From: Mycobacterium sp.
Lineage (GTDB): Bacteria > Actinomycetota > Actinomycetes > Mycobacteriales > Mycobacteriaceae
DNA length: 13,362 bases
Direction: 5' to 3'
NCBI GenBank assembly: GCA_023264755.1
Contig: JAHFVB010000045.1
Location: forward strand, 1,672 to 15,033
Positions within the stretch are counted from its first letter, which is position 1. Every line of letters begins with the position of its first letter. Shown one piece after another: positions 1 through 13,362 of this stretch. The notes beneath the pieces are model-generated. The model ran no database searches. It had not been told where the DNA came from and saw only the letters and a list, made by a program, of their open reading frames with translations. A program made the translations under genes and the position numbers.

Positions 1-834
1 GGGGCCGCCGACGCGCGCCGCGTCGGAACCGACGCAATGTCACCGACGTTCGAGCAACTCTTGCCGATCGCCTTTCCAAGGGCCGAGCTCGTCGACGGAG
101 AGCTCGCCATGCGCAGCGCCCGGCGGATCAAGACACCCGAAGAGGTGACGGCGCTTCGCGCGGCGACCCGGGTCGCCGAAGGCGGTCTTGCCGCAGCGCT
201 TTCGAACCTGGCCCCAGGTAGCACCGAGCAGTCCTTGACCGGCCTGATGCTGGAGGCAATGGCCGCCGGTGGGGTGAGCACGTCGGCCACCCAGGACGGG
301 GCCTGGGTGACCTCACGCGAGCATCCCTGGCGGCAAGGCCCAAGGGATCGCCGGATTGCGCCCGGTGACCTGGTGGCCTTCGCGTCCGGCGCACTTGCGG
401 ACGGCTACGTCGGCGAGGTGGGCCGCACCGTACCCGTAGGGGACATCGCCGGGGTGGACGAACTGTTCGACCGCTCGACTGCGCTGTGGGACAAGCTGAT
501 TGCCGCCTGTCGGCCTGGCGCCGCCGCCAGCGAGCTGCTCGCGGCGTACTCCGCAGCCGGCGAGCCGCTGCCTGCCACGCCGGTGGCCCACGGCCTTGGC
601 TTGGGCTTCGACACTCCGGTGGTGTCTCCCGACCTGCCGCAGACCTCTGCCGAGGAACGGCTAGACCCCGGCATGGTGCTGGCCGTCACCGGATACGTAT
701 GGGAGCAGGGCGTCGGCGCGGTCTACCAACGTGACGCCGTGCTGATCACCGAGGACGCGGCCGAGGTGCTGACCACGACGCGTTGGCCCGAAGAACACGT
801 GCACGCTCACCACGCGCCCGCCGGGTTGGGCTGA
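1..834 (+). CDS. M24 / creatinase-fold protein, 5' partial, metal ligands degenerate
   Basis: The reading frame is open to base 1, and the residues before the ATG at 37 look like the end of an M24 N-terminal domain, so the true start lies outside the window. The C-terminal pita-bread domain is complete and ends at the stop at 832-834. M24 enzymes (Xaa-Pro peptidases, methionine aminopeptidase, creatinase) usually bind two metals through Asp, Asp, His, Glu, Glu. Aligned by eye, these positions read Ala (codon 382), Glu (415), His (589), Thr (688) and Arg (730); the two Asp positions keep the expected 11-residue spacing. Only the His remains, so metallopeptidase activity is unlikely and a creatinase-like metal-free hydrolase or a non-enzymatic role fits better. 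A His at 322-324 could match the creatinase catalytic His. The crotonase gene begins 10 nt downstream, implying co-transcription. Fold assignment is good; function is unknown. Confidence 0.85.
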   Translation, partial: GAADARRVGTDAMSPTFEQLLPIAFPRAELVDGELAMRSARRIKTPEEVTALRAATRVAEGGLAAALSNLAPGSTEQSLTGLMLEAMAAGGVSTSATQDGAWVTSREHPWRQGPRDRRIAPGDLVAFASGALADGYVGEVGRTVPVGDIAGVDELFDRSTALWDKLIAACRPGAAASELLAAYSAAGEPLPATPVAHGLGLGFDTPVVSPDLPQTSAEERLDPGMVLAVTGYVWEQGVGAVYQRDAVLITEDAAEVLTTTRWPEEHVHAHHAPAGLG

Positions 835-844
835 AGGGGAACCG

Positions 845-1801
845 ATGTCGGGCAAGAAGCGGCCATCGGCCGAGGACATCATCTGCTACGAGAAGGACGC
901 GAAGACGAAGATCGCGACGATCACGTTCAACCGTCCCGAGTTCCTCAATGCGCCGACCTCGGATGCGCGGTTGCGCTACGCCGACGTGGTGAGGGCCGCC
1001 TCCGTCGACAACGACGTCAAGGTCGTCGTCATCCGGGGCGTTGGCGAGAATCTCGGCAGTGGTGCGGATCTGCCGGAATTCATGGAGGGCGTCGACGAGC
1101 CGGAGAAGCGGCTGCGCGAGCTGAAGGTCGAGGGGATGGAAGTCACCTATCCGCCCAAGGGCACTTTTCGCAACGGCGCCACGATCAGTGGCTGGTACGC
1201 CAACGTGCAGGCGGGCAACCGTCCTCTGCAGGAGCTCAAGAAGATCAGCATCGTCGAGGCCAAGGGCTACTGCTACGGGTGGCACTTCTACCAGTGCGCG
1301 GACGCCGATCTGGTGATCTCCTCCGACGACGCGCTATTCGGCCACCCGTCCTTCCGGTACTACGGGTGGGGCCCGCGCATGTGGACCTGGGTTCAGATGA
1401 TGGGGCTGCGCAAGTTCCAGGAGATGGTGTTCACCGGACGGCCGTTCACCGCCGAGGACATGGACAAGTGCAACTTCCTCAACAAGGTGGTGCCGCGGGA
1501 CCAGTTGGAGGCCGAGACGCAGAAATATGCGCTCGCTTGCGCCCGCAATCGCCCGGTCGACACGGTGTTCATGCAGAAGATGTTCTTCGAGATCTACAAA
1601 CAACATCAGGGCGAGTACATGGGCAGCCTGCTGAGCGCGTTCTTCGAGTCCATGGGCAGCGGCGTCGCCGCGGACAGCGCCGATGACCTGGACATGAACG
1701 AGTCCATCGACAGTGGGCTGGCCGCCGCGGTCAATGCCAACGACGACAAGTTCCCGCCCGAGTTCCGGCTCAGCAAGAAGAACCGCAAGAAGTCGAAGTA
1801 G
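845..1801 (+). CDS. Crotonase / enoyl-CoA hydratase family protein, divergent active site
   Basis: A 318-aa crotonase-superfamily protein that should bind an acyl-CoA. The first oxyanion-hole segment is GSGADL (71-76) and the second is around GYCYGW (141-146). The C-terminal helical region, with FTGRPFTAEDM (196-206) and NKVVP (213-217), is typical of the family. A stretch at about 96-125, rich in Tyr, Trp and Asn, is the usual variable loop. At the positions of the two catalytic Glu residues of rat hydratase (Glu144 and Glu164), the protein appears to have Tyr149 and Ser169, so simple hydration of an enoyl-CoA is doubtful. Isomerase, hydrolase or C-C lyase chemistry is possible within the superfamily. 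The C-terminus is a Lys-rich tail from about residue 309. The ATG at 845 has a GAAGGGG ribosome site 10 nt after the preceding stop, and the CoA-transferase gene starts 9 nt downstream. Confidence 0.9.
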   Translation: MSGKKRPSAEDIICYEKDAKTKIATITFNRPEFLNAPTSDARLRYADVVRAASVDNDVKVVVIRGVGENLGSGADLPEFMEGVDEPEKRLRELKVEGMEVTYPPKGTFRNGATISGWYANVQAGNRPLQELKKISIVEAKGYCYGWHFYQCADADLVISSDDALFGHPSFRYYGWGPRMWTWVQMMGLRKFQEMVFTGRPFTAEDMDKCNFLNKVVPRDQLEAETQKYALACARNRPVDTVFMQKMFFEIYKQHQGEYMGSLLSAFFESMGSGVAADSADDLDMNESIDSGLAAAVNANDDKFPPEFRLSKKNRKKSK

Positions 1802-1810
1802 GTCCGCCGC

Positions 1811-4216
1811 ATGTCGTCGCCACTAAGTGGCTACACGGTCGTCGACCTGTCCAGCGGAATCGCCGGGGCTTACGCCGCCAAGATACTGGCCGACGGCGGC
1901 GCCGACATCGTCAAAGTCGAAGCACCCGAGGGCGATCCGTTGCGTCGGTGGTCGGCCTCCGGGGCGACCCTCGAGCCGGGCCAGGACGGTGCGCTCTTCA
2001 GCTTCCTGGCGTGCTCGACACGCAGTGTCGTCGCCGATGCAGCCGACCCGGCCGACGTCGAACTGCTCGAGGGGCTACTCGCCGGCGCCGACGCGGTCGT
2101 CTGGTCGCCTGGTACGCCGCTCGCCGCCGTCGAGGCGCTGGCGCCGCAGCGGCTCCACGCCAAGTACCCCCACCTCGTCGTCACGGCGATCACCCCGTTC
2201 GGGCTCGACGGTCCGTGGCGGGATCGACCCGCGACGGAGTTCACCCTGCAGGCCTGGTCCGGCGGAGCCATCGGGATCGGACGAGGCACCCAGGACCGCG
2301 CGCCGATCCACGTGGGCGGCCAGGTAGGGGAGTGGATCTCCGGCGCCGGCGCGGCCGCGATGACTCTGGCGTTTCGGTGCCGCGCGCTCCGAGACGGGCA
2401 CGGTGAACTCATCGACCTGTCGATGCTGGAGGCGCAGATTCTCGGGCTCACCTACTACCCCGTCACGTATTTCGAAATGCTCGGTCGGCCGTGGCGTACC
2501 GAGCGCAGACCGACGGTGCCCGGGGTGGCGCAGGCGGCCGACGGATTGGTCGCACTCGGTTGCGGCACCGCGCAGCAGTGGCACGACCTGTGTGCCATGT
2601 CGGGCCACGACGAATGGATCGACGAGGGCACCGCGCTCACCATCACCGAACAGGCCAACCTGCACGCCGAGGAACTCTACGAGTGGCTGCGCGATCAGCG
2701 GGTGGACGACGTGCGCGAGCTCGCTTCGGCGTTCCGGATCCCGAATTCGCCTGTGGCCAATGGTGAGAACGTGACGACCATGGATCACTTCGTCGAACGC
2801 GGTGCGTTCGTCCGCAATCCGCGCGACGGCTTCACCCAACCCAACCATCCCTACCGGCTTGGTGGCGTCGCACTGCGCACCTTCGAAGCGGCGCCGCGGC
2901 TGGGTGAGCACACCGAATCGGTTCGCGCCGCGGTGCCGCCGCCGCGGCCCCGGCCCACTGGACAGCCGGACCGTGATCGGTTGCCGTTCAGCGGCCTTCG
3001 GGTGCTCGACATGACGACGTTCTGGGCGGGTCCGTCGTGCACCCACACGCTCGCGATGTTGGGCGCCGAATTGATCCATCTCGAATCGACAGCTCGTCCC
3101 GACGGCACCAGGTTGATCGCCGGCATCCCCGCCACGGTCGAGCAGTGGTGGGAGCGCTCGCCGATCTTCTCGGCGCTCAACACCAACAAGAAGAGCGTCA
3201 CCCTGGACTTCCAGACCGAGCGCGGTCGGGAGCTGCTGCGTCGGCTGATCGCGACCTGTGACGTCGTCGTCGAGAACTTCACCCCCCGGGTCATCGAACA
3301 ACTCGGCCTCGACTTCGAGACGCTGCGTTCGTTGCGCGAGGACATCGTCATGGTGCGCATGCCGGGCTTCGGACTCGACGGTCCGTGGCGGGACAATCCC
3401 GCGTTCGCCTACATCATCGAGGACGCCTCCGGATTGAGTTGGCTGACAGGCTATCCCGACCAAGACCCGTACGAGCCCTATTCGGTCGGCGATCCCAACG
3501 CCGGCGTGCACGCGCTCAATGCACTGTTGTTGGCCTTGGAACATCGGCGGCAGACCGGCCGTGGAGTGCTCGTCGAGGCCGCCATGGTGGATGCCGCACT
3601 CAACATCGCCGCCGAGCAAGTGATCGAGCACTCCGCCTACGGGACACTGCTGCAGCGCAACGGCAATCGCGGGCCGGGCGCTGCGCCGCAGAACATCTAC
3701 CGGTGCGAGGGCCTCGACGAGTTCGGCAGGGCCGACTGTTGGGTGGCGATCGCAGTCGAGCACGACCGGCAGTGGGCGGCGCTGCGCGAAGCGCTCGGCG
3801 AGCCCGGCTGGGCGCAGGATCCGCGATTGAGCACCGAGGCTGGACGCCGGGCCGCGCACGACCTGGTCGACGAACGGCTGGCGGAGTGGTGTGCCGCTCG
3901 GACCGGCCATGAGATCATCGAGTTGTTATGGGCCGCAGGTGTTCCCGTAGCCAAGGTGATGCAACCACACCGCCAGGGCGAACTGGCCCAGGTGCAGGCG
4001 CGGGGCTTCTTCGAACTCGTCGGACATCCGGTGAACGCTGCCGCCCCGCACAGCACGCTCCCGATCCGATTGGCCTCCGGCCCGGATTCGTTCCACCGGT
4101 GCCCCGCGCCCCTGCTGGGCGAGCACAACTGCGAAGTGCTGAGTGCCCTAGGCGTCAGCGAGGCCGAACTAGCCGCGCTGGAGCACGACGGCGTCATCGG
4201 AACGGTGCCCCGCTAA
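1811..4216 (+). CDS. Tandem-domain CaiB/BaiF (family III) CoA transferase
   Basis: An 801-aa protein, about twice the usual ~400 aa of a family III CoA transferase, made of two consecutive CaiB/BaiF domains (about 5-375 and 395-790). Each domain starts with the typical strand (LSGYTVVDLSSG and FSGLRVLDMTTF) and contains a GLDGPWRD motif; that motif's DNA is identical over 20 nt in the two halves (2204-2223 and 3374-3393). Family III enzymes move CoA between carboxylic acids through an aspartyl-CoA thioester. The C-terminal half has the expected nucleophile, Asp561, in VGDPNAG. In the N-terminal half the same position is Glu174, in VGEWISG. The CoA donor and acceptor acids are unknown. Being third in this operon, after the crotonase, it probably activates the pathway acid or recycles CoA. 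It ends just before a strong hairpin terminator. Confidence 0.93.
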   Translation: MSSPLSGYTVVDLSSGIAGAYAAKILADGGADIVKVEAPEGDPLRRWSASGATLEPGQDGALFSFLACSTRSVVADAADPADVELLEGLLAGADAVVWSPGTPLAAVEALAPQRLHAKYPHLVVTAITPFGLDGPWRDRPATEFTLQAWSGGAIGIGRGTQDRAPIHVGGQVGEWISGAGAAAMTLAFRCRALRDGHGELIDLSMLEAQILGLTYYPVTYFEMLGRPWRTERRPTVPGVAQAADGLVALGCGTAQQWHDLCAMSGHDEWIDEGTALTITEQANLHAEELYEWLRDQRVDDVRELASAFRIPNSPVANGENVTTMDHFVERGAFVRNPRDGFTQPNHPYRLGGVALRTFEAAPRLGEHTESVRAAVPPPRPRPTGQPDRDRLPFSGLRVLDMTTFWAGPSCTHTLAMLGAELIHLESTARPDGTRLIAGIPATVEQWWERSPIFSALNTNKKSVTLDFQTERGRELLRRLIATCDVVVENFTPRVIEQLGLDFETLRSLREDIVMVRMPGFGLDGPWRDNPAFAYIIEDASGLSWLTGYPDQDPYEPYSVGDPNAGVHALNALLLALEHRRQTGRGVLVEAAMVDAALNIAAEQVIEHSAYGTLLQRNGNRGPGAAPQNIYRCEGLDEFGRADCWVAIAVEHDRQWAALREALGEPGWAQDPRLSTEAGRRAAHDLVDERLAEWCAARTGHEIIELLWAAGVPVAKVMQPHRQGELAQVQARGFFELVGHPVNAAAPHSTLPIRLASGPDSFHRCPAPLLGEHNCEVLSALGVSEAELAALEHDGVIGTVPR

Positions 4217-4217
4217 C

Positions 4218-4269
4218 GCGATTCGGCGCGCCAACGCTCGTTCGGCGAGCATTGGCGCGCGCGAATCGC
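4218..4269. terminator. Bidirectional hairpin terminator between convergent genes
   Basis: The arms 4218-4240 and 4246-4269 are complementary over 23-24 nt, with one bulged base and one mismatch (G-U capable on one strand), around a 5-nt loop TTCGG. The hairpin lies directly after the CoA-transferase stop (4214-4216). Its right arm reaches the first base of the complemented SDR stop codon (4269-4271). No T-run follows, as is common in mycobacterial terminators. It should stop transcription from both sides. Confidence 0.85.
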
Positions 4270-5105
4270 TACTTCAGGCAGCTGCCGCCGTCGACGGGCA
4301 GCGTGACCCCGGTGATGAACCGGGCCTCGTCGGAGGCCAGGAACAACACGGCGTTGGCGATGTCCTCGGGCTCGACCCAGCCGATGGGCAGCGTGTGCAT
4401 GAGCTGACCGATGACCAACATGTCGTCCGGGCCCGGGTTCTCCAAGTCGGGCCGGAAGAGCTTCATCGTGGGCTCGTTCATGAACAGCGGAGTGTTCACG
4501 TTGGTGGGGTGCACCGAGTTGACCCGGATGTTCTGGGCGCCGAGCTCGACGGCGAACGTGCGCATGAGCCCGACCACACCGTGTTTGGCGGCGACGTAGT
4601 GACCGGTGTGTGGGTAGGCCTTGAGCCCACCGACGGAACTGGTGAGGATGATGGAGCCGCCGCGCCCGCCCGCGAGGATGTGCGGGACGCCCGCCTTCAC
4701 GGTCTTCCATACGCCGGAGAGGTTGACGGCGATCATGTCGTCCCAGTCGCCTTCGCTGGTCTTGTCCAGCGTCTGCCCGCCGTTGCCGATGCCTGCGTTC
4801 GCCACGATGATGTCGAGCCGGCCAAGCTGATCGACCCCGGTGTCGACGGCCTGCTTGAGTGCGTCGTAGTCCCGCACGTCGACCTCGGCGGTGTAGATCT
4901 GGCGATTGAAGCCCTTGACCAGATCGGCCGTTTCGGCGAGCTCCTCCGGTGTCGACAGGGGGATCTGCACGCTGTCGATCTGCTTGCAGATGTCGACGGC
5001 GATGATGTCGGCGCCCTCCTGGGCCAGCCGGACGGCATGGGCCCGACCCTGACCCCGCGCTGCCCCCGTGACGAATGCGACCTTGCCTTCTACCCGCCCT
5101 GCCAT
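4269..5105 (-). CDS. Mycofactocin-type SDR family oxidoreductase (NAD-dependent)
   Basis: A 278-aa classical short-chain dehydrogenase that oxidises an alcohol or reduces a ketone. Visible elements are the TGAARGQG nucleotide loop (13-20), Asp38 at the end of the second strand (favouring NAD over NADP), NAG (103-105), Asn128, Ser156/157, and the catalytic Tyr170 and Lys174 (YVAAK). The ICKQIDS segment and the roughly 35-residue insert between strand 2 and VDVRD (41-75) are hallmarks of the mycofactocin-coupled SDR group, in which the NAD is held tightly and is re-oxidised by the peptide cofactor mycofactocin. That coupling is inferred from sequence resemblance. The ATG at 5105 is preceded by GAGGG four nt upstream. 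It has a separate promoter and is convergent with the CoA-transferase operon. The substrate is unknown. Confidence 0.92.
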   Translation of the reverse strand: MAGRVEGKVAFVTGAARGQGRAHAVRLAQEGADIIAVDICKQIDSVQIPLSTPEELAETADLVKGFNRQIYTAEVDVRDYDALKQAVDTGVDQLGRLDIIVANAGIGNGGQTLDKTSEGDWDDMIAVNLSGVWKTVKAGVPHILAGGRGGSIILTSSVGGLKAYPHTGHYVAAKHGVVGLMRTFAVELGAQNIRVNSVHPTNVNTPLFMNEPTMKLFRPDLENPGPDDMLVIGQLMHTLPIGWVEPEDIANAVLFLASDEARFITGVTLPVDGGSCLK

Positions 5106-5181: not shown

Positions 5182-5374
5182 TGAAGTGGCGGGGCCGGGC
5201 CATTTGTACCGGCTGCTTAGAAACGGCTGGTCAACCCACGCGGAGAACCACGGCTCGGGAGGCCCGCACGGCTGAATCGACTCGGCGGCCCGTTGCCGAA
5301 CGCCCGGTGCTGGCCTCGCCCACGGCGGCATCCGCGCTCCGCGGGCAGGGGGAACGTTCTAGCGCCGGGAGAAG
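5182..5374. other. Non-coding stretch between the TetR and SDR genes
   Basis: This region follows the stop of the TetR gene and precedes the SDR promoter. Open frames crossing it look like shadows of flanking genes and have no family signature. The only structure noted is a short GC-rich hairpin (CCGCG-CTC-CGCGG, 5332-5344), which could be a weak terminator for the TetR transcript. Confidence 0.35.
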
Positions 5375-6103
5375 CTAGTTCTCGGGCCGCTCGGCGGCGA
5401 ATCCGTGGGCGCAGAAGTCCCAGACCTCTTGGGCCGAGATCGGTTTGACGGAGCTGTCGTCCGAGCCACTGGACTGTGCGACGAACATGACCGTTTGCAT
5501 CGTCATCGCCGCAATGCGCCGCGGGTTGAGGCCAGGGCGTAGCACGCCTGCCTTGGCTGCGTCCTCCATCAAGTCGGTGAGCAGCGCCACCAGCGGTGCG
5601 TGCGCGATCTTGACCTCGGACGGATGTGAGACCAGCAGCCGGGGCGCGAAATCCGTGAAGAGGGGCCGCTTCGCGATCGGATCGGGACGCGACGACTCGA
5701 AGAGCAGCTCGATGGCGACCTTCAGCGCTTCGAGCGGATCGGACTGACCGGCCGTCGCCGCCCGGATCTGGTCGGCGGACCGGCTGAGCGCATCTTCGAA
5801 CAGCGCCAGCAATAGCTCGTGCTTGCCGTCGAATTGCAGATAGAAGCTGCGCAAGGACTGACGGGAGCGATCGACGACCTCTTGCACGGTGAAGTCGGTA
5901 CTACCCTTTTCGATGATGATCTCCTGGGCGGCGTCGAGGAAGCGCTCCACCCGCTGAGCGGCGCGCAGTTTCGCTGTCTTGATGGAGCGTTCGACCGCGC
6001 GCTGCTTCCACGCCGGCTCTTCGCTCGGGCCGGTCGCCGTCATCTCGGCGGCAGGATGATCAGGGAGAACATGCATGAACTGTACCGGAGGTCGCTTGGC
6101 CAT
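5375..6103 (-). CDS. TetR/AcrR-family transcriptional regulator
   Basis: A 242-aa regulator. After an N-terminal extension of about 45 residues comes a TetR DNA-binding domain: helix 1 around RVERFLDAAQEIIIEKG (51-67), and the helix-turn-helix from FTVQEVVDRS through RSFYLQFDGK (71-94). The C-terminal part (about 100-242) is helical and variable, as expected for a ligand-binding and dimerisation domain. It is the only regulator gene in the window. The ATG at 6103 has an AGGA ribosome site seven nt upstream; Met10 and Met21 are alternative starts. The gene's upstream region contains a 17-bp palindrome (6159-6175) that recurs at the promoter of the seven-gene operon, so autoregulation and control of that operon are inferred. 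The ligand may be a CoA ester or the substrate of the pathway, but nothing in the sequence identifies it. Confidence 0.93.
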   Translation of the reverse strand: MAKRPPVQFMHVLPDHPAAEMTATGPSEEPAWKQRAVERSIKTAKLRAAQRVERFLDAAQEIIIEKGSTDFTVQEVVDRSRQSLRSFYLQFDGKHELLLALFEDALSRSADQIRAATAGQSDPLEALKVAIELLFESSRPDPIAKRPLFTDFAPRLLVSHPSEVKIAHAPLVALLTDLMEDAAKAGVLRPGLNPRRIAAMTMQTVMFVAQSSGSDDSSVKPISAQEVWDFCAHGFAAERPEN

Positions 6104-6158
6104 CGTGGTCCTAGACCCCCTTGCGGCCAGCGTGTCCGAGATTGTAACTTCCTCATCG

Positions 6159-6175
6159 TGAGAATAGTATTCTCA
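6159..6175. promoter_or_regulatory. GAGAAT-type palindrome, proposed TetR operator at its own promoter
   Basis: TGAGAATA-G-TATTCTCA is a perfect 8+1+8 palindrome centred on base 6167, about 64 nt upstream of the TetR start. On the minus strand its centre reads TACTAT (6164-6169), a plausible -10, with a TTGCAA about 15 bp upstream as a possible -35. A second -10-like hexamer, TACAAT, lies at 6141-6146. In either case the palindrome sits inside the promoter, as expected for autorepression. A copy matching at 14 of 17 positions lies at 12077-12093. Confidence 0.75.
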
Positions 6176-6231
6176 TTCCTGGCTTTGCAACAGCCTTCCC
6201 TGGAAAGTCCGCGTTCCCGCGCCGACCTGGG

Positions 6232-7047
6232 TTAGAGCTGGGCAATGCGGGGGGCGGACCCATTGGCGCGCAACGCCCTTCCAGCAGCTCGGGTGAGATC
6301 GCGAGAGCCGCCGAGCAGTCCGTCGAGGATGAGCACCCGTTTGAAATGACGATGGAAGTCGTGTTCGGCCGTGAACCCGAGGCCTCCCAATACCTGTTGG
6401 CAGTGCTTGGCCGCGGTCAGCGCAGCCTGACCGGCGGCGGCCTTGGCCAGCAGTGCGCCGAGTTCGTCGCCGGCACACGCCAGGGTGGCCTCGGCGCCCT
6501 CGATGGCGACGAGGGTTTCGGCCAGCCGGTGCCTGACCGCCTGGAAGGACGCGATCGGGCGGCCGAACTGGGTACGGTCCAGCGCGTGTCGGCGGGCGAG
6601 TTCGAGCATGGCCCTCGAGCTGCCGACGAGCCACCACCCCAGCGCGGCGCGACCGGCGACGAGCGGAATGCCGCTGCCGGCCTCGACTCGGTGTATCGGC
6701 AGTTCGGGATCGATGGTCGTGCTGGATTGGCGGCCCGCTTCGTGACGTCGTTCCCACACGACCCAGTTGCCGCCCCGGTACGGCAGCGGCACCGTGCCGC
6801 CCGGCGGGCGACCAAGCGCCTGCAACACGACGTCGTTGAGCACCGGCGCGTGCGACCCCGTCTCGCCCAACAGCCGGAACACCAACGGAACTGCCACCTT
6901 GGGCATTTCGTCGAGCATGTCGTGCCAGCCGAGCTCGACGAGCGCGGACTCCAGTGCGGCGCCAGAGGACGACGTCATGGTCTTGCACAAGGCGTCCTCA
7001 AGCAGGCCGAGCGTCTCGGCATCGGGTTCGTCCGGAGCGTCCGCCAC
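6232..7047 (-). CDS. Acyl-CoA dehydrogenase small subunit (FadE-like, C-terminal half only)
   Basis: A 271-aa acyl-CoA dehydrogenase homologue, much shorter than the usual 380-400 aa. It lacks a recognisable N-terminal SEPGSGSD-type region. The C-terminal part is clear: RTQFGRPIASFQAVRHRLAE (158-177), and GGLGFTAEHDFHRHFKR (221-237), a form common in actinobacterial partner subunits. The chosen start is GTG at 7047, because AAGGAG (7053-7058 on the plus strand) lies five nt upstream. A GTG at 7053 would leave no room for a ribosome site, and the longer open frame beyond it overlaps the large-subunit gene. Only 2 nt separate it from that gene. It probably forms a heterotetramer with the large subunit, as the paired FadE proteins of mycobacterial steroid side-chain degradation do. 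It is the last gene of the seven-gene operon. Confidence 0.88.
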   Translation of the reverse strand: MADAPDEPDAETLGLLEDALCKTMTSSSGAALESALVELGWHDMLDEMPKVAVPLVFRLLGETGSHAPVLNDVVLQALGRPPGGTVPLPYRGGNWVVWERRHEAGRQSSTTIDPELPIHRVEAGSGIPLVAGRAALGWWLVGSSRAMLELARRHALDRTQFGRPIASFQAVRHRLAETLVAIEGAEATLACAGDELGALLAKAAAGQAALTAAKHCQQVLGGLGFTAEHDFHRHFKRVLILDGLLGGSRDLTRAAGRALRANGSAPRIAQL

Positions 7048-7049
7048 GG

Positions 7050-8204
7050 TCACTCCTTGCCCAGGTCGAGCAGGCGACGAGCGATGATGTTGCGTTGAAT
7101 CTCGGCCGTCCCTCCGTAGATGGTGGCGGCTCGCGAATAGAGAAACTCGGTGCGCCAACGGTTCTCGTCGAGCTCGAAGACTCCGTCGAGGGTGTCTCGG
7201 ACGATGTCGTAGAGCCCCTGCTCTGCTGTTGCCAACAACACCTTGTCGATCGACGTCTCCGCGCCGAGCCGGGCGCCGCCGGCGAGTCTGAGTTGGGTCT
7301 CGCGCGACCGGCACCGCAGCGTGTGCAAGCCCAGGTAGGCCGCGCCGAGTTGGGCGTCCACCGGGTCGGCGGCCGATTCCTCTCGCCCGCCGGCGAGTTC
7401 GGCGATCAGCGCGTCGAATCTCGAGTAGAGGTAGGCGATTCGCTGCCAGAAGCACGTCGACCGCTCGAACGGTAGTAGATCCATCGCGAGCTGCCAGCCG
7501 TCGCCGGGCCTGCCGAGCATGCGGTCGGCGGGCACCGCGACGTCGTCGAAGTACACCTCGCAGAACTCGTCGACGCCGTGCATGGTGCGCAGCGGTCGCA
7601 CTTCGATGCCCGGGCTGTCCATGTCGACGACGAACGCGGTGATGGCCTGATGGTTGGGGGTGGACCGGTCCCCGGTCCTGGTCAGCAGTATGCATCGGGT
7701 CGCGTACTGGGCGAAGCTGGTCCACACCTTCTGGCCATTGACGAGGTAGCGATCCGAGCTCGCATCGTGTTCGGCCCGCGTGGTCAACGACGCCAGGTCG
7801 CTTCCGGAGCCGGGCTCGGAAAAGCCCTGGCACCACGTCTCGCGCCCGGACAACAGCAGCGGCACCAGCTCGGCGGCGAGTTCCGGGCGCGCATAGTCGA
7901 TCATCGTGGGGGTCAGCACTTCGAGCATGGAGTAGGGGCCGGGATCATCGAGCCCGCGCCCGACGACCTCCTCGCCGACGATGGCGCGCAAGATCATCGG
8001 CCCTCCGAGTCCGCCCGCGGATTCCGGCCAGCCCCACCGCATCCAGCCTGCGTCGTAGAGTGCGCTCAGCACCCGCGCATGTTGCGCGTGGACGGCGTCG
8101 AGCGAGTGTTCCTCAGCCGGCGGGGTCAGGTCGTGATCGTCGAGCCAGGCCACCAACTGGGCCCGGAAGTGGGCCGGCGTCGGAATCTCCGGGATGGCCG
8201 TCAT
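7050..8204 (-). CDS. Acyl-CoA dehydrogenase large subunit (FadE-like)
   Basis: A 384-aa FAD-dependent acyl-CoA dehydrogenase that would introduce an alpha-beta double bond into an acyl-CoA. Visible elements are CQGFSEPGSGSDLA (125-138), the middle beta domain with VNGQKVWTS (155-163), and the C-terminal IYGGTAEIQRNIIARRLLDLG (362-382). In that last motif the Glu used by medium-chain enzymes (IYEGT) is Gly. A Glu on helix G, Glu247 in PFERS, aligns with the catalytic Glu of isovaleryl- and long-chain-type enzymes and is the likely base. The ATG at 8204 overlaps the stop of the SnoaL-like gene (ATGA), indicating translational coupling. Upstream in-frame sequence is the antisense-like shadow of that gene. 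The partner small-subunit gene follows after 2 nt. The acyl chain specificity is unknown. Confidence 0.93.
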   Translation of the reverse strand: MTAIPEIPTPAHFRAQLVAWLDDHDLTPPAEEHSLDAVHAQHARVLSALYDAGWMRWGWPESAGGLGGPMILRAIVGEEVVGRGLDDPGPYSMLEVLTPTMIDYARPELAAELVPLLLSGRETWCQGFSEPGSGSDLASLTTRAEHDASSDRYLVNGQKVWTSFAQYATRCILLTRTGDRSTPNHQAITAFVVDMDSPGIEVRPLRTMHGVDEFCEVYFDDVAVPADRMLGRPGDGWQLAMDLLPFERSTCFWQRIAYLYSRFDALIAELAGGREESAADPVDAQLGAAYLGLHTLRCRSRETQLRLAGGARLGAETSIDKVLLATAEQGLYDIVRDTLDGVFELDENRWRTEFLYSRAATIYGGTAEIQRNIIARRLLDLGKE

Positions 8205-8644
8205 CCCGCTTCGGGCCGACCAATCGCATGCGGCCGACCGGAGTCGTGATCGCCATTGCGCCGAATGAACGTCATGGCACGGGTTTTCAACCGCCACCCG
8301 GCGGCGGTGCGGACGTAGGTGTCGTTGTAGTACCCGATCCGCATGTCGTGCGTGGCGTGCTCGACGAAGCACAATGGCTGCGTGCCGGTGGCGCTACCAG
8401 GATCGAAGCCGGGGTCCGCCGAATCGAAGTCGACCAGCGCCGTGCCCGTCATGAACAGCCCGCTGGGCGCCGCGGCGACCAGGTCGGGAAAACGGGCCAG
8501 CGTGTAGGTGGACCCGAAGGCGCTGTAGGTGCCGTCCGGCGTGAACACCGTCACCAGCCCCTCGACGTCGCCTCGCGTGATGGTCACCGCGTACTTGGCG
8601 AGCAGCTGCTGGATTTCGACGAGGTCATCGGTTCTCGTTGACAA
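8201..8644 (-). CDS. NTF2-like / SnoaL-type small protein
   Basis: A 147-aa protein with the NTF2-like cone pattern: an N-terminal helix with EIQQLLAKYAVTITRGDVEGL (10-30), then F-x-PDGTY (34-40), and C-terminal strands ending with GWRLKTRAMTFIRR (115-128). Proteins of this fold include steroid isomerase, scytalone dehydratase, SnoaL cyclases and the beta subunits of ring-hydroxylating oxygenases. The exact reaction cannot be read from sequence. The only suitable start is a TTG at 8644, inside the end of the amidohydrolase gene (20-nt overlap), preceded by AAGG at 3 nt and a G-run at 8 nt. The end overlaps the acyl-CoA dehydrogenase start by 4 nt. In this operon it could serve as an isomerase/dehydratase, or as a beta-like partner of the Rieske protein (inference). 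Confidence 0.85.
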   Translation of the reverse strand: MSTRTDDLVEIQQLLAKYAVTITRGDVEGLVTVFTPDGTYSAFGSTYTLARFPDLVAAAPSGLFMTGTALVDFDSADPGFDPGSATGTQPLCFVEHATHDMRIGYYNDTYVRTAAGWRLKTRAMTFIRRNGDHDSGRPHAIGRPEAG

Positions 8645-9851
8645 AGACCTTGCCCCCCTTCATGACGAAATTGACTTCCCGAGTGACACTGATGTCGAGG
8701 AGCGGGTCGCCCGGGACCGCGATGACGTCGGCGAGTTGGCCAACGGCCAACCTGCCCCGGTCGGCGACGTCGATGAGTTCGGCCGCCACCACCGTGGCCG
8801 CGCGCAGCACCGCCGCCGCAGGCATGCCCCACTCGACGAGCGTGACGAGTTCGTCGGCGTTCTTGCCGTGTGGAATCGCGGGGGCATCGGTGCCGACGGC
8901 GATCTTTACTCCCGCCTCGTAGGCGGCCTTGAGTGACGTGCGGGCCTTGGGAAACATCTCGGCGGCCTTGTCCTGCAATTCCCTTGGAGCCTTCGATACG
9001 TCCATCGCCTCGGCCAGGCGCCGAGTCGTCACCAGGAACCGGTCGTTGTCGACCAGCATCTGGATCGCTTCGTCGTCCATCAGGAAACCGTGCTCGATGC
9101 AGTCGATGCCGACCGCGACCGCGTGCTTGACCGCCTCCGCGCCGTGGGTGTGGGCGGCAACCCGCAGTCCCCGCCGGTGTGCCTCGTCGACGATCGCGGC
9201 CAGTTCTTCGTCCGAATAGTGTTGTGCGCCGGCTTCTCCGGTGAGGGACATGACGCCACCCGAGACGCACACCTTGATCAGGCGGGCGCCGTGCTTGATC
9301 TGGTATCGGACGGCCTTGCGGATCTCGTCGACGCCGTTTGCGATGCCTTCCTCGACGGTCAGCTCGAGCACACCGGGCATGAAGGCGGCGAACATCGTCG
9401 GATCGAGGTGGCCGCCGGTCGGTGTGATGGCGTGCCCCGCGGGCACGATGCGGGGCCCTTCGATCCAACCGGCGTCGATGGCCTTGCCCAGCGCGACGTC
9501 GAGCAGGTAGCCGCCGGTCTTCACGAAGAGCCCGAGGTTGCGGACGGTGGTGAAGCCGGCGTGCAACGTGCGACGGGCGTTTCCGACCGCACGGAGCACT
9601 CGGGTGGGCGGATCGTCCTGCACCTGCGACAGCCCGGGTTGCTCTCCGCGGCCGCCCATGAGCAGGTTGACCTCCATGTCCATCAGACCGGGCAGCAGGA
9701 TCGATTCGCCTAGGTCGATGACAGTCGCCGATTCCGGTATGTCACCGCCGATGCCGACGATCCGGTCGCCTTCGATCGTGAGGATGGCCGGCCGGATGAC
9801 TTCCCCTGCGTCGACGTCGAGGTAACCCGCAGCCTTCAGGGTGAGTACCAC
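8625..9851 (-). CDS. Amidohydrolase (imidazolonepropionase/prolidase-like), HxH replaced
   Basis: A 408-aa amidohydrolase-superfamily protein. It has the N-terminal small beta domain, the entry motif LLPGLMDMEVN (52-62), and a TIM barrel with Lys193 (LIKVCVSGG, a candidate carboxylated lysine), His234/His236 (AAHTHG), His254 (IEHG) and Asp322 (GTDAP). A C-terminal return of the beta domain follows, with RGRLAVGQLADVIAVPGDPL (365-384). The first metal pair, normally His-x-His after PGLID, is Glu60-x-Asn62. The other ligands are kept, so a mononuclear or altered metal site is possible. Family members hydrolyse cyclic amides, dipeptides or C-N/C-O bonds. The start is GTG at 9851, 2 nt after the preceding stop; the longer frame beyond it is out-of-frame sequence of the upstream genes. 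The 3' end overlaps the SnoaL-like gene. Confidence 0.9.
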   Translation of the reverse strand: MVLTLKAAGYLDVDAGEVIRPAILTIEGDRIVGIGGDIPESATVIDLGESILLPGLMDMEVNLLMGGRGEQPGLSQVQDDPPTRVLRAVGNARRTLHAGFTTVRNLGLFVKTGGYLLDVALGKAIDAGWIEGPRIVPAGHAITPTGGHLDPTMFAAFMPGVLELTVEEGIANGVDEIRKAVRYQIKHGARLIKVCVSGGVMSLTGEAGAQHYSDEELAAIVDEAHRRGLRVAAHTHGAEAVKHAVAVGIDCIEHGFLMDDEAIQMLVDNDRFLVTTRRLAEAMDVSKAPRELQDKAAEMFPKARTSLKAAYEAGVKIAVGTDAPAIPHGKNADELVTLVEWGMPAAAVLRAATVVAAELIDVADRGRLAVGQLADVIAVPGDPLLDISVTREVNFVMKGGKVFVNENR

Positions 9852-9853
9852 GC

Positions 9854-10183
9854 CTAGACCACCGGCTCTTCGATGAGTTCGATGTAGGCAGCGCCGCTGT
9901 CGAGCACGCGGGGCTGCTTCCACACTTCGACGGGGAAGCTCACCATGACGATCGACTGGCCCAGGTGCACCAATGCCTTGGCGTCCTCGGGCATCCCCTT
10001 GAGGGGGAAGCGGGCGTCGACGTAGACCATGATGTCCTCGAGCCGGTCCAGCCCCGCGTCGTAGAGCTCCTGCATCTCCGCCATCGACGAGGCCAGCCGC
10101 TTGGCGTAGCGCTCCTCCTCGGTGGGCAGACACCAGTCGCTGAAGCGCTCGAGGTCGGCGAATTCGGCTGGCAACTTAGACAT
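9854..10183 (-). CDS. Conserved small protein of unknown function, 109 aa
   Basis: I do not recognise a characterised family. The protein has 109 residues, no signal peptide and no membrane segment. The first half looks helical and charged (EEERYAKRLASSMAEMQELYDAGLDRLEDI, roughly 36-65 in two helices). The second half has a SFPVEVW motif (about 81-87) and DSGAAYIELIEEP near the C-terminus. The ATG at 10183 lies inside the end of the Rieske gene (8-nt overlap) and has AAGGA seven nt upstream. The amidohydrolase gene starts 2 nt downstream. This tight embedding right after the oxygenase suggests an accessory or assembly role for the Rieske enzyme, but that is inference from context only. Confidence 0.8.
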   Translation of the reverse strand: MSKLPAEFADLERFSDWCLPTEEERYAKRLASSMAEMQELYDAGLDRLEDIMVYVDARFPLKGMPEDAKALVHLGQSIVMVSFPVEVWKQPRVLDSGAAYIELIEEPVV

Positions 10184-11507
10184 GTGCGGTGTCCTTCTCG
10201 CGAGGTTCGGCGGCCTTCCCATTGGCCTGCCCAGTCCCGTTGCCGGTATGGGCGTTGACGTACTTCCATGCCGTCATGTGCAGATGACGCAACAGAATCT
10301 CCTGGTCGCACAGCGGGAAGTCCGTCACGACCCGCGTGTTGATCATGCGCTGGGTGGCCTCGAGGGTGTTGGCGTCCTGGAAGGCGTACTCCTTGAACGT
10401 CACCGCGGCGAGTTCCTGGGAGAGCCGCTCGCGAAGATTCTTCGGGGGCACGAAGTACAGGTCGGCCTCGAAGATGTGTTTGTCCACCGCCGTCGGCCAG
10501 TAGTGATAGGTCAGGTACCAGCCGGGCGCCCAGAACAGCAGCGTGAAGTTCGGGAAGAACTCGAAAGAGTCCGTGCCCCAAGTCTTGTGGCGGCCCGGGT
10601 TGATGGCCGGCGGCAACTCGTCGGGCAGAATGCCCTTGATGGCCGGGCGGTCCCACGGCCCGAACAGGCCGCTGTGCAGGATGCGCTCGATCGGCTTGAC
10701 CATGTTCAGGTCCTTGGGCGGGCTCATTCCGCCCCAGGACGACACCATGGAGTGGTCGCCCTTGATGTCGTAGGCCAGCGCCTCGAAGCCGAACTTGGCC
10801 AGCTTCTCGGCCTCCTCCTTCTCGGCCTGCTTCATGTGCAGGATCGGCGCGTGGTAGAACTCGGTGAACGCGTCGATGAACAACTTCCAGTTGGCGTTGA
10901 TCTCCGCCCGGTAGCCGTAGTGCTCGGTCATCTCGTGGAACGGATAGCCCTCGAGCCCCTTGCCGAAGTCCCCGAGGTAATCGGACAGTGGGGCAGCGTC
11001 GTCGTCGAAGTTGACGAAGAGGAAGCCCTCCCAGACCTCGCAGCGCACCGGGACCAGTCCGTAGTCGTTCTTGTCGAGGTCGAAGAACTCGCCTTCCTGC
11101 TGCACGAAGGTCAGCTCGCCGTCGAGCGCGTACCGCCAGGCGTGGTACTTGCAGGTGAACTGGCGGCAGGTGCCCGACACCTCCTCGCCCGGATAGTCGC
11201 TCCACACCAGCTTGTTGCCGCGGTGTCGGCACAGGTTGTGGAAGGCGCGCACGACCCCCTCTCGGTCCTTGACCACGATGATCGACGTGCCGGGACCCAC
11301 GGACGGCAACTCCCTGGTGAAGTAGCTGCCGGTCTTGGGCAGCCGCTCTATCCGGCCGACGTTGAGCCAGGTCTTCTTGAAGATCGCCTGCTGCTCGAGC
11401 AGATAGTGCTCCGGATCGATGGAGTCCTCGTAATTGACTGGTGCGGTACCCAATTCGGGCCAGTGCTCGGTCCAGCTGCCCTCGTTGGGCTTGGGGAAAT
11501 GCGCCAT
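10176..11507 (-). CDS. Rieske [2Fe-2S] ring-hydroxylating oxygenase, alpha subunit
   Basis: A 443-aa Rieske non-heme iron oxygenase catalytic subunit that would use O2 and electrons from a reductase/ferredoxin to hydroxylate or cleave its substrate. Cluster ligands are Cys93-x-His95 and Cys119-x2-His122 (NLCRHRG, CKYHAW). The gap between the pairs is 23 residues, longer than the common 15-17. The mononuclear iron site is NWKLFIDAFTEFYHAPILH (206-224), giving His219, His224 and bridging Asp212; Asp378 is a candidate third ligand. The end is hydrophilic and low-complexity (about 420-443). The ATG at 11507 follows an AAGGAGGA ribosome site and is 2 nt after the CMD stop. No ferredoxin or reductase is encoded in this window; a conventional beta-subunit gene is absent unless the SnoaL-like gene serves. 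The substrate is not deducible. Confidence 0.95.
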   Translation of the reverse strand: MAHFPKPNEGSWTEHWPELGTAPVNYEDSIDPEHYLLEQQAIFKKTWLNVGRIERLPKTGSYFTRELPSVGPGTSIIVVKDREGVVRAFHNLCRHRGNKLVWSDYPGEEVSGTCRQFTCKYHAWRYALDGELTFVQQEGEFFDLDKNDYGLVPVRCEVWEGFLFVNFDDDAAPLSDYLGDFGKGLEGYPFHEMTEHYGYRAEINANWKLFIDAFTEFYHAPILHMKQAEKEEAEKLAKFGFEALAYDIKGDHSMVSSWGGMSPPKDLNMVKPIERILHSGLFGPWDRPAIKGILPDELPPAINPGRHKTWGTDSFEFFPNFTLLFWAPGWYLTYHYWPTAVDKHIFEADLYFVPPKNLRERLSQELAAVTFKEYAFQDANTLEATQRMINTRVVTDFPLCDQEILLRHLHMTAWKYVNAHTGNGTGQANGKAAEPREKDTAHV

Positions 11508-11509
11508 GC

Positions 11510-12037
11510 TCAGTTCTCCTCCTTGGGTTCGACGCCGAATGTGTTGAGGGCCATCGCCAGCATGTGGTAGCCACCCACGGTGAACACTAAGTCCATGAGC
11601 TGTTGCTTGTCCAGCTGCTCGGCGAGGGCAGCCCAGGTCTGGTCGGTGATGCGGGTGTGCGCGACCAGCTCGTCGACGGCTCGGAGCACCGTCTGGTCGA
11701 ATGCGGCGCTGGCCTCACCGTTTTGGAGTGCGGCGATGTCGTCGTCGCACAGGCCGACCTGCTTGCCGATCGCGACGTGCTCGTCCCATTCGTAGTCACA
11801 GGACGTGAGGTGGGCGACGCGGAGCACGGCGAGCTCGCGCAAGCGTGGCGCCAACGTCGACCGCGTCAGTAGATAGAAGGCGAAGCCGAGGTACGACCGA
11901 GCGAGCTCCGGATGGTTGACGAAGGTCGCGATGGCGTTGCCCGCGGCGAGCGGATTGCGCCGTTCCTCGGGCATCATCCGCAGCGCGGTCAGGACCGCGT
12001 CATCCCACTCGGCGGCAGGCAATGGGGGGACTCGCAC
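11510..12037 (-). CDS. Carboxymuconolactone decarboxylase / AhpD-like protein
   Basis: A 175-aa all-helical protein of the CMD/AhpD family. The core motif is LRELAVLRVAHLTSCDYEWDEHVAIGK (66-92). Cys80, Glu83 and His87 occupy the place where AhpD has CxxC...H, so the second redox Cys is replaced by Glu. Alkylhydroperoxidase activity through a disulfide is therefore unlikely, while a decarboxylase or lactone-acting role remains possible. The start is a GTG at 12037 with GGAG about eight nt upstream. It is the first gene of the seven-gene operon, and its promoter carries a copy of the GAGAAT palindrome 48 nt upstream (centre at 12085). The Rieske gene follows after 2 nt. Confidence 0.9.
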   Translation of the reverse strand: MRVPPLPAAEWDDAVLTALRMMPEERRNPLAAGNAIATFVNHPELARSYLGFAFYLLTRSTLAPRLRELAVLRVAHLTSCDYEWDEHVAIGKQVGLCDDDIAALQNGEASAAFDQTVLRAVDELVAHTRITDQTWAALAEQLDKQQLMDLVFTVGGYHMLAMALNTFGVEPKEEN

Positions 12038-12076
12038 GTGCGTGCTCCGCTCTGACTCCGGGGTGCCTCTCGACTA

Positions 12077-12093
12077 CGAGAATGATATTCTCA
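12077..12093. promoter_or_regulatory. GAGAAT-type palindrome, proposed TetR operator of the seven-gene operon
   Basis: CGAGAATG-A-TATTCTCA matches the palindrome at 6159-6175 in 14 of 17 positions, and its right half TATTCTCA is identical. The minus strand reads TATCAT (12082-12087) at the centre, a good -10 for the operon starting at 12037. A -35 was not obvious. Having the same motif in the same position relative to a -10 at two promoters supports a shared repressor site. Confidence 0.75.
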
Positions 12094-12354: not shown

Positions 12355-13362
12355 GTGAACAAGGACGACATGATCCTGATCAGCGTCGACGATCACATCG
12401 TCGAGCCGCCTGACATGTTCAAGAACCACCTAGCCAAGAAGTACATCGACGACGCTCCGCAACTCGTGCACAACCCGGACGGCTCCGATACCTGGCAGTT
12501 CCGCGACATCGTGATTCCCAACGTCGCGCTCAATGCGGTGGCCGGCCGACCCAAGGAGGAGTACGGCCTGGAGCCTCAGGGCCTCGACGAGATCCGCAAG
12601 GGGTGCTACGACGTCGACGAGCGCGTCAAGGACATGAACGCGGGCGGCATCCTGGGCTCGATGTGCTTCCCCTCGTTCCCGGGTTTCGCCGGGCGGCTGT
12701 TCGCCACCGAGGATCCGGATTTCTCGCTGGCCTTGGTGCAGGCCTACAACGACTGGCACGTCGAGGAATGGTGCGGCGCCTACCCGGCGCGTTTCATTCC
12801 GATGACGTTGCCGGTGATCTGGGATGCCGAGGCGTGCGCAGCCGAGGTCCGGCGCAACGCCAAGCGCGGGGTGCACTCGCTGACCTTCAGCGAGAACCCC
12901 TCGGCCATGGGTTATCCCAGCTTCCACGACGACTACTGGAACCCGCTGTGGGAGGCGCTGGTAGACACCGACACCGTGCTCAACGTGCACATCGGGTCGT
13001 CGGGACGACTGGCCATCACCGCCCCGGACGCGCCGATGGACGTGATGATCACGCTGCAGCCGATGAACATCGTGCAGGCGGCAGCAGATCTGTTGTGGTC
13101 CAAGCCGATCAAGAAGTACAAGGACCTCAAGATCGCGTTGTCCGAGGGTGGCACCGGGTGGATTCCGTACTTCCTGGACCGGGCCGACCGCACGTACGAG
13201 ATGCACTCCACCTGGACCGGACAGGATTTCGGCAAGCAGAAGCCCAGCGAGGTGTTCCGCGATCACTTCCTGACGTGCTTCATCTCCGATCCGGTCGGCG
13301 TCGAGCTGCGCAACAAGATCGGCATCGACAACATCTGCTGGGAGGCCGACTACCCGCACAGC
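12355..13362 (+). CDS. Amidohydrolase_2 (ACMSD-like) family protein, 3' partial
   Basis: The frame runs from GTG 12355 to the end of the window (336 codons, no stop). The sequence fits the amidohydrolase_2 family of metal-dependent hydrolases and decarboxylases, such as ACMSD and gamma-resorcylate decarboxylase. The entry motif is VDDHIVEPPDMF (residues 11-22), in which the usual second His of the HxH pair is Glu (His-Ile-Val-Glu). Later candidate metal or active-site residues are the His in NVHIGSSG (codon at 12991-12999 region), the Glu in SEGGTGW and the Asp in WEADYPHS near the end. GTG 12355 is chosen because AAGGA lies six nt upstream; ATG at 12370, also with AAGGA upstream, is an alternative. 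It is divergent from the Rieske operon and probably acts in the same pathway, on a carboxylated or ring-derived intermediate (inference). Confidence 0.9.
   Translation, partial: MNKDDMILISVDDHIVEPPDMFKNHLAKKYIDDAPQLVHNPDGSDTWQFRDIVIPNVALNAVAGRPKEEYGLEPQGLDEIRKGCYDVDERVKDMNAGGILGSMCFPSFPGFAGRLFATEDPDFSLALVQAYNDWHVEEWCGAYPARFIPMTLPVIWDAEACAAEVRRNAKRGVHSLTFSENPSAMGYPSFHDDYWNPLWEALVDTDTVLNVHIGSSGRLAITAPDAPMDVMITLQPMNIVQAAADLLWSKPIKKYKDLKIALSEGGTGWIPYFLDRADRTYEMHSTWTGQDFGKQKPSEVFRDHFLTCFISDPVGVELRNKIGIDNICWEADYPHS

Follow-up and report, generated by a model that had tools for sequence, protein, structure and literature searches.

The window analysed here is a stretch of 13,362 nucleotides from Mycobacterium sp. 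(assembly GCA_023264755.1, contig JAHFVB010000045.1, positions 1,672 to 15,033 of the forward strand). It contains a gene for a TetR-family regulator (the window TetR) and a run of seven genes that extends from position 12037 down to 6232, in the order carboxymuconolactone decarboxylase-like protein (CMD), Rieske oxygenase, small open reading frame (ORF), amidohydrolase, SnoaL-like protein and two acyl-CoA dehydrogenases. Two near-identical palindromes of 17 bp are present, TGAGAATAGTATTCTCA at 6159-6175 and CGAGAATGATATTCTCA at 12077-12093. The first-pass annotation placed one of them upstream of the TetR gene and the other upstream of the seven-gene operon, and took them for the operators of a local repressor that controls itself and its pathway. 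The letters, the coordinates and the assignment to the two genes all agree with the window, the CMD start lies 48 bp from the second palindrome.

The conserved core of the palindrome is 15 bp long and reads GAGAAT-R-N-Y-ATTCTC, in which GAGAATR is the informative half-site. Sites were mapped in a sample of 82 site rows from ten genomes (that of the window and nine others with full site lists); over these 82 sites the T/A pair at the ends of the 17-mer contributes only 0.02 bits, and the operator is therefore taken as 15 bp. The positions first given for the palindromes stand, their full 17-bp extent does not. The earlier 17-bp pattern with up to three mismatches occurs at two places only in the window (four strand matches), shuffled versions of the window give a mean of 0.36 matches and four were reached in 1 of 200 shuffles. 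Base composition would yield 0.0001 exact matches to GAGAATNNNATTCTC in a window and 0.04 in a genome. The genome of origin (4.75 Mb in 636 contigs, 70% complete) holds four exact GAGAATRNYATTCTC sites, two in the window and two elsewhere (C277:1549 and C419:1277), and two sites with one mismatch (C277:15135 and C424:7247). With up to two mismatches there are 19 sites, against one for the pattern read backwards as a control.

The palindrome is conserved at orthologous loci. The sample consisted of the best 80 of 343 TetR relatives in named genomes (79-88% identity), all 80 titled Mycobacterium, Mycolicibacterium or Mycobacteriaceae. An exact site is found at the TetR promoter in every one of these loci, centred 63 or 64 bp upstream of the start. 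Fifty-five loci include the Rieske gene together with the divergent amidohydrolase gene, and each of them has a site in between, exact in 26 and with one mismatch in 29. A further site is found at the 3' end of the TetR gene in 46 of the 80 loci with up to one mismatch and in 69 with up to two; a control stretch 1 kb beyond this end gives 0/80 and 2/80, respectively.

The window TetR belongs to the TetR family by both domain and fold. The helix-turn-helix domain TetR_N (PF00440) is found at its N-terminus with 32.7 bits (cut-off 24), and residues 68-105 of the helix-turn-helix are identical in the 80 orthologues (mean 1.000, versus 0.80 elsewhere in the protein). An AlphaFold model, built from 28 sequences of 79-91% identity, has nine helices and is all-helical with a separate C-terminal domain (mean pLDDT 76.5, pTM 0.67). 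Its top matches in the PDB are TetR-family proteins, led by FadR-type acyl-CoA repressors and EthR2. Since TetR proteins resemble one another in fold, the match to the FadR-type fold is weak evidence for the nature of an inducer; no NCBIfam FadR model scored above cut-off for the window TetR (25.5 bits, cut-off 200). In a survey of 61 genomes at E <= 1e-15 the TetR was found in 30, within its own genus only, and one of these (G008) holds a paralogue alone; at the same threshold 24 genomes from other genera within the order gave no match. A plasmid collection gave no match to the window TetR, and plasmid-borne spread was rejected on this ground. Two full TetR orthologues each are present in G015, G021, G092, G096, G109, G124, G153, G173, G197 and G204.

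The number of sites follows the presence of the TetR gene. In 198 Mycobacterium genomes TetR was scored as present at E <= 1e-60, which gave 163 genomes with the gene and 35 in which no full copy was detected, and sites were counted with up to one mismatch. The TetR-bearing genomes contain a median of eight sites (range 0-13), whereas among the 35 without TetR 20 have none, ten have one, four have two and one (G171) has nine. Three or more sites are present in 159/163 genomes with TetR (G079 has three) and in 1/35 without it (Fisher 1.2e-32). All 198 genomes together contain 1315 sites, compared to six for the backward control. The first-pass annotation had named random scatter of the motif in the genome, or its absence upstream of orthologous clusters, as findings that would count against it, and neither was observed.

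The tracking of TetR by site count and the fixed distance of the site in the TetR promoter, together with the failure of a second TetR of the cluster to track the sites, favour binding by the window TetR. The palindrome is likely the operator of this protein, which we predict to repress its own gene and a catabolic regulon scattered over the genome. An operator at the regulator's own promoter in the 80 closest loci, joined by several promoters of catabolic genes, is the pattern seen with KstR. The earlier reading of a local repressor is supported at the TetR and Rieske-operon promoters; the word local is not, as there are about eight sites per genome and some are far from TetR.

ORF calling in these genomes was rough and included overlapping spurious ORFs, the promoter classes therefore rest on protein matches, and the intergenic share of sites was not used as evidence. 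Outside the window, three sites in the genome of origin each lie between two genes, namely those for an acyl-CoA dehydrogenase and an amidohydrolase, for a P450 and a second TetR, and for a ferredoxin and an acyl-CoA ligase, and one lies before a gene for a thiamine-diphosphate enzyme. Over the ten mapped genomes, sites were found at TetR in nine (in the remaining genome, G004, the TetR promoter has a site with one mismatch), at the acyl-CoA dehydrogenase ACADx in nine, at the amidohydrolase AmdH2z in nine, at acyl-CoA ligase/ferredoxin genes in eight, at thiolase/SDR genes and at Rieske-CMD/AmdH2w genes in six each, and at P450 and KorA genes in four each. Orthologues of AmdH2z (at least 75% identity) are present in 14 of 15 TetR-bearing genomes, and all 14 have a site (13 exact, one mismatched), mostly 30 bp before the start. 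In 15 TetR-lacking genomes no AmdH2z match exceeded 39% identity.

The korA gene (2-oxoacid:ferredoxin oxidoreductase; L180:8222 and loci L251-L279) behaves as a facultative member of the regulon. It is retained in 30 of the 30 genomes asked, and a site with up to one mismatch lies upstream of it in 6/14 TetR-bearing and 0/15 TetR-lacking genomes (Fisher 0.006), a count that omits the fragment in the genome of origin because its 5' end is missing. In G008, which has the paralogue and no TetR, the korA upstream site has two mismatches. In G033 the sites are spread over about 100 kb, and one more lies at korA, at a distance of 140 kb. The cluster in this genome contains an Mce-type import operon (L178:6183-11164; MlaE permease, MlaD/Mce4_CUP1), and more widely it contains MhpA- and MhpB-type ring-degradation families above cut-off and further P450s. 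KstD-, ChcC1- and HsaD-like matches were obtained as well, all of them below cut-off. The target genes are predicted to act in the degradation of ring-shaped or lipid-like compounds.

Several observations weigh against the assignment of these sites to the window TetR as repressor of the regulon. The Fisher values treat genomes as independent and ignore shared ancestry, and loss of the whole cluster would remove gene and sites together. Four genomes (G025, G086, G112 and G201) have a TetR with unchanged helix-turn-helix yet only 1, 2, 0 and 0 sites, and their TetR promoters have no site within two mismatches; these may be decaying systems. G171 (93% complete, 700 contigs) has its nine sites and only the paralogue, no TetR orthologue being found. 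G093 was counted as lacking TetR and contains two end fragments of it with 80% identity (residues 1-60 and 186-240), an exact site lies upstream of the first fragment. In the mapping sample 14 of the 82 rows have no adjacent reference gene and four have a match below 40% identity. Of the TetR-bearing genomes tested, only a minority have the korA site. The 405 bases before the first gene of the G033 mce operon contain no site within three mismatches, and direct control of this operon was dropped. Finally, repression rather than activation is assumed by analogy with the TetR family.

In the mechanism that we propose, a TetR dimer would bind the 15-bp palindrome over or beside the core promoter and block RNA polymerase, and binding of an inducer to the C-terminal domain would release TetR from the DNA. 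The inducer might be an acyl-CoA that arises within the pathway; this is suggested more weakly, since acyl-CoA ligases, dehydrogenases and a thiolase are among the regulon's genes, the closest folds to the model include the acyl-CoA-binding FadR repressors, and a paralogue of the regulator is fused to a hotdog thioesterase. The P450, Rieske, mycofactocin-SDR, beta-oxidation-like and amidohydrolase steps, with korAB in some species, would then be switched on as one programme.

The positions of the sites bear on this mechanism. Most sites are found 16 to 79 bp before the start, while some operators, at korA (168-247 bp) and at amidohydrolase genes (200-340 bp), are far from it. The first-pass annotation described both palindromes as centred on a -10-like hexamer, which is correct for the letters but as a promoter assignment is supported in part, at some of the promoters. 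A central TAnnnT/TAnnAT faces the gene at AmdH2z (9/9, 2/9 on the opposite strand) and thiolase promoters (5/5, 1/5 on the opposite strand), but not at acyl-CoA dehydrogenase (0/9) or P450 promoters (0/4). The TetR promoter has a separate -10-like TAnnnT, mostly TACAAT, at a fixed downstream place in 67/80 loci; if this is the TetR -10, operator 1 would cover the -35/spacer. The geometry of operator and promoter, as read from these letters, thus differs between promoter classes. Operator 2 lies between divergent genes, the CMD/Rieske operon on one strand and the amidohydrolase gene on the other, and may serve both. The TetR might bind the motif without being a simple repressor of the pathway, acting as an activator or sensing something unrelated to the CoA esters of the pathway. 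Blocking of the core promoter is indeed less obvious for the far operators, but for most sites the start is no more than about 80 bp away, several have a coding-strand -10-like hexamer, and the known TetR-family relatives by fold are repressors; we consider this alternative unlikely.

The element beside operator 1 keeps its outer letters and most of its core in the 80 loci, and is a candidate for the second half of a tandem operator, for a -10 (TACAAT), or for both. In L141-L143 it is a near-perfect palindrome, GAGAGTAGTACTCTC, 21 bp from operator 1 (21-22 bp for the element generally). The element and operator 1 might form a tandem operator with a spacing of two helical turns. The coordinates of the operators and of the genes of the window are given in the table. 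The ORF at 1811-4216 adjoins the crotonase, it is 801 amino acids (aa) long and contains two tandem CoA-transferase family III domains.

Table. Operators and genes in the window of 13,362 nucleotides.
Feature	Position	Strand	Basis or remark
Operator 1, core GAGAATAGTATTCTC	6160..6174		centre 64 bp before TetR ATG; window and own-genome scans, orthologous loci
Operator 2, core GAGAATGATATTCTC	12078..12092		between CMD/Rieske operon (-) and amidohydrolase gene (+)
Candidate weak operator 3, GAGAAGCTAGTTCTC	5369..5383		two mismatches; over TetR stop codon, upstream of mycofactocin-type SDR gene
Conserved element beside operator 1	6138..6154	-	reads GAGGAAGTTACAATCTC
TetR-family regulator, 242 aa	5375..6103	-	Pfam TetR_N; predicted palindrome binder
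CMD, operon gene 1	11510..12037	-	Pfam PF02627
Rieske oxygenase alpha subunit	10176..11507	-	Pfam PF00848, PF00355
Small ORF, 122 aa, no family assigned	9854..10222	-	ORF list only
Amidohydrolase (PF01979), Xaa-Pro-dipeptidase-like	8625..9884	-	Pfam on longer ORF; NCBIfam NF051886 366.9 bits, below cut-off of 500
SnoaL-like protein	8201..8644	-	Pfam PF13577
Acyl-CoA dehydrogenase, large-subunit type	7050..8195	-	best NCBIfam matches acyl-CoA dehydrogenases, below cut-off
Acyl-CoA dehydrogenase, small-subunit type, last operon gene	6232..7143	-	Pfam Acyl-CoA_dh_1 on longer ORF; IpdE2/PimD-like below cut-off
Mycofactocin-coupled SDR	4269..5105	-	TIGR03971 392.6 bits, cut-off 300
Amidohydrolase divergent from Rieske operon, runs off window	12355..13362	+	ORF, Pfam class measured on paralogues only; predicted co-regulated
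Partial M24-peptidase-like ORF, crotonase, double CoA-transferase III	within 1-4216	+	

The palindrome might instead be bound by another regulator of the cluster, with the window TetR merely one of its targets. The candidate compared was a second TetR (L016:15275-15949), which is divergent from a P450 gene and adjoins a one-mismatch site in the genome of origin; the cluster contains further regulators, known by sequence only. The second TetR is present in only 71 of the 198 genomes, and genomes without it (such as G001, G004, G006, G007 and G009) still hold 6-11 sites. It was rejected as the motif binder on this distribution. The window TetR tracks the sites far better, and we consider binding by another regulator of the cluster unlikely.

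A paralogue of the window TetR (TetRp, 34-41% identity) adjoins a paralogue of AmdH2z, an amidohydrolase of family PF04909. The TetRp loci share the palindrome TGGTAA-N5-TTACCA in 11 of 13 cases. This palindrome is present in 110/145 genomes with TetRp and in 3/53 without (Fisher 3.7e-20), its 114 sites compare with 11 for the backward control, and there is one per genome with a site, except for two in G196. The helix-turn-helix framework and the kind of target gene are shared with the window TetR, but the operator letters differ. The two operators, TGAGAA-N5-TTCTCA for the window TetR and TGGTAA-N5-TTACCA for TetRp, have the same 6-5-6 layout and differ by two bases per half-site, and the recognition region reads SRQSLRSFYLQF in the window TetR and SKTSLRSFYQHF or SKTSLRAFYQHF in TetRp. 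Such paired layouts are as expected if repressors have duplicated and come to use separate operators, and they support, without proving, the reading of GAGAAT by the window TetR. That the GAGAAT palindrome is common to TetRp was rejected, since TetRp tracks TGGTAA-N5-TTACCA and G008 has TetRp but no GAGAAT site. At the TetRp/amidohydrolase pair, TGGTAA-N5-TTACCA was observed in L295, in L297-L308 and at G000:C34:1447-1463 (L240:1348-1364). In three of five proteins scanned (L297:2744-3766, L298:2743-3837 and L248:1492-2502) TetRp has a hotdog thioesterase of the 4HBT type fused to its C-terminus, which would give a repressor and a thioesterase in one protein; in L301 and L304 it is unfused.

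The TetRp fusion suggests that the inducer is a CoA ester, and more may be ventured, tentatively, about the two systems together. An undescribed TetR regulon of the scale of KstR, present in 163 of the 198 Mycobacterium genomes sampled, might command a whole catabolic programme that starts with the CoA activation of an alicyclic, aromatic or terpenoid-like compound, runs through P450/Rieske oxygenation to beta-oxidation and, in some species, takes in KorAB. Beside it would stand a sister system in which a duplicated repressor has changed its operator half-site from TGAGAA to TGGTAA at unchanged spacing and, in some lineages, has gained a thioesterase domain that could degrade the acyl-CoA by which it is induced.

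This regulon could already have been described under another name, for example as the regulon of motif X, whose regulator in strain VKM Ac-1817D is given as the Rv0767c orthologue. In the description of motif X (PMC6593523), whose letters are given only in a figure, a palindrome lies upstream of mycobacterial genes for P450, SDR and TetR proteins. In that description the TetR adjoins several P450 genes, whereas the window TetR adjoins the Rieske/acyl-CoA dehydrogenase operon. The motif X set is reported as sterol-induced and includes a steroid isomerase and alcohol and aldehyde dehydrogenases (PMC6593523), and the neighbours of our mapped sites were not identified as a set of this kind. It is by these descriptions of gene neighbours and induction that the window TetR is set apart from Rv0767c/G155_05115. 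We regard an earlier description as very unlikely. Chance, or a non-regulatory repeat, is ruled out for the two sites: AT-rich intergenic DNA does yield short palindromes by chance, but the shuffles, the base composition, the excess of sites over the backward control in 198 genomes, the fixed place in all 80 loci and the recurrence at the same promoters leave it next to no probability.

For a large block of catabolic genes in mycobacteria, whose annotation otherwise goes no further than the family, the analysis names an operator and a regulator that can be tested, and the substrate could be found through a compound that releases TetR from DNA. The window TetR and TetRp form a natural pair for learning how the recognition helices of TetR proteins change specificity. 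The korA result links an enzyme of central metabolism to the regulon, in some species only.

String and topic searches of titles and abstracts gave, among the matches listed, no described operator with these letters; motifs presented only as logos (PMC4482099, PMC6593523) were unreadable as letters. MftR represses mycofactocin biosynthesis and is described as binding T-N2-GGCA-N5-TGCC-N2-A, with acyl-CoA inducers and the mft genes as targets (PMC8728441). Like the window TetR it is a mycobacterial TetR with a palindromic operator, and one target in the window is a mycofactocin-coupled SDR; the operator letters given for MftR are unlike GAGAATRNYATTCTC and it was rejected as the motif's regulator. 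Rv3160c is a TetR repressor of the oxygenase gene rv3161c, and its reported site consists of 50 bp of nested 12- and 8-bp inverted repeats (PMC7810876). It shares with the window TetR its mycobacterial origin and operator palindromes at the promoter of an oxygenase gene, but in that account (PMC7810876) it controls one operon, whereas the window TetR has a candidate 15-bp operator at many promoters.

The FadR-type repressors of Bacillus, Thermus and Sulfolobus (PDB 5gpc, 3ang and 6el2), which bind acyl-CoA, have the folds closest to the AlphaFold model. Identity is only 15-21% and TM-scores are moderate, 0.57-0.61 by query length; the comparison is one of folds. The cholesterol catabolism repressors KstR and KstR2, as described in PMC6593523, PMC1995591 and PMC3068626, are likewise mycobacterial TetR proteins whose operator is repeated over a dispersed catabolic regulon that includes their own promoter. 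The regulated genes are unlike those of KstR and KstR2 in that the window regulon has Rieske/CMD genes, a mycofactocin SDR, PF04909 amidohydrolases and korAB, and the solved structure of KstR2 ranks only 50th among the fold matches of the model. The letters of the KstR and KstR2 operators we take to be different from those of the window motif. This regulon, with operator letters that did not appear among the titles and abstracts listed, would work like the TetR regulons of the KstR type.

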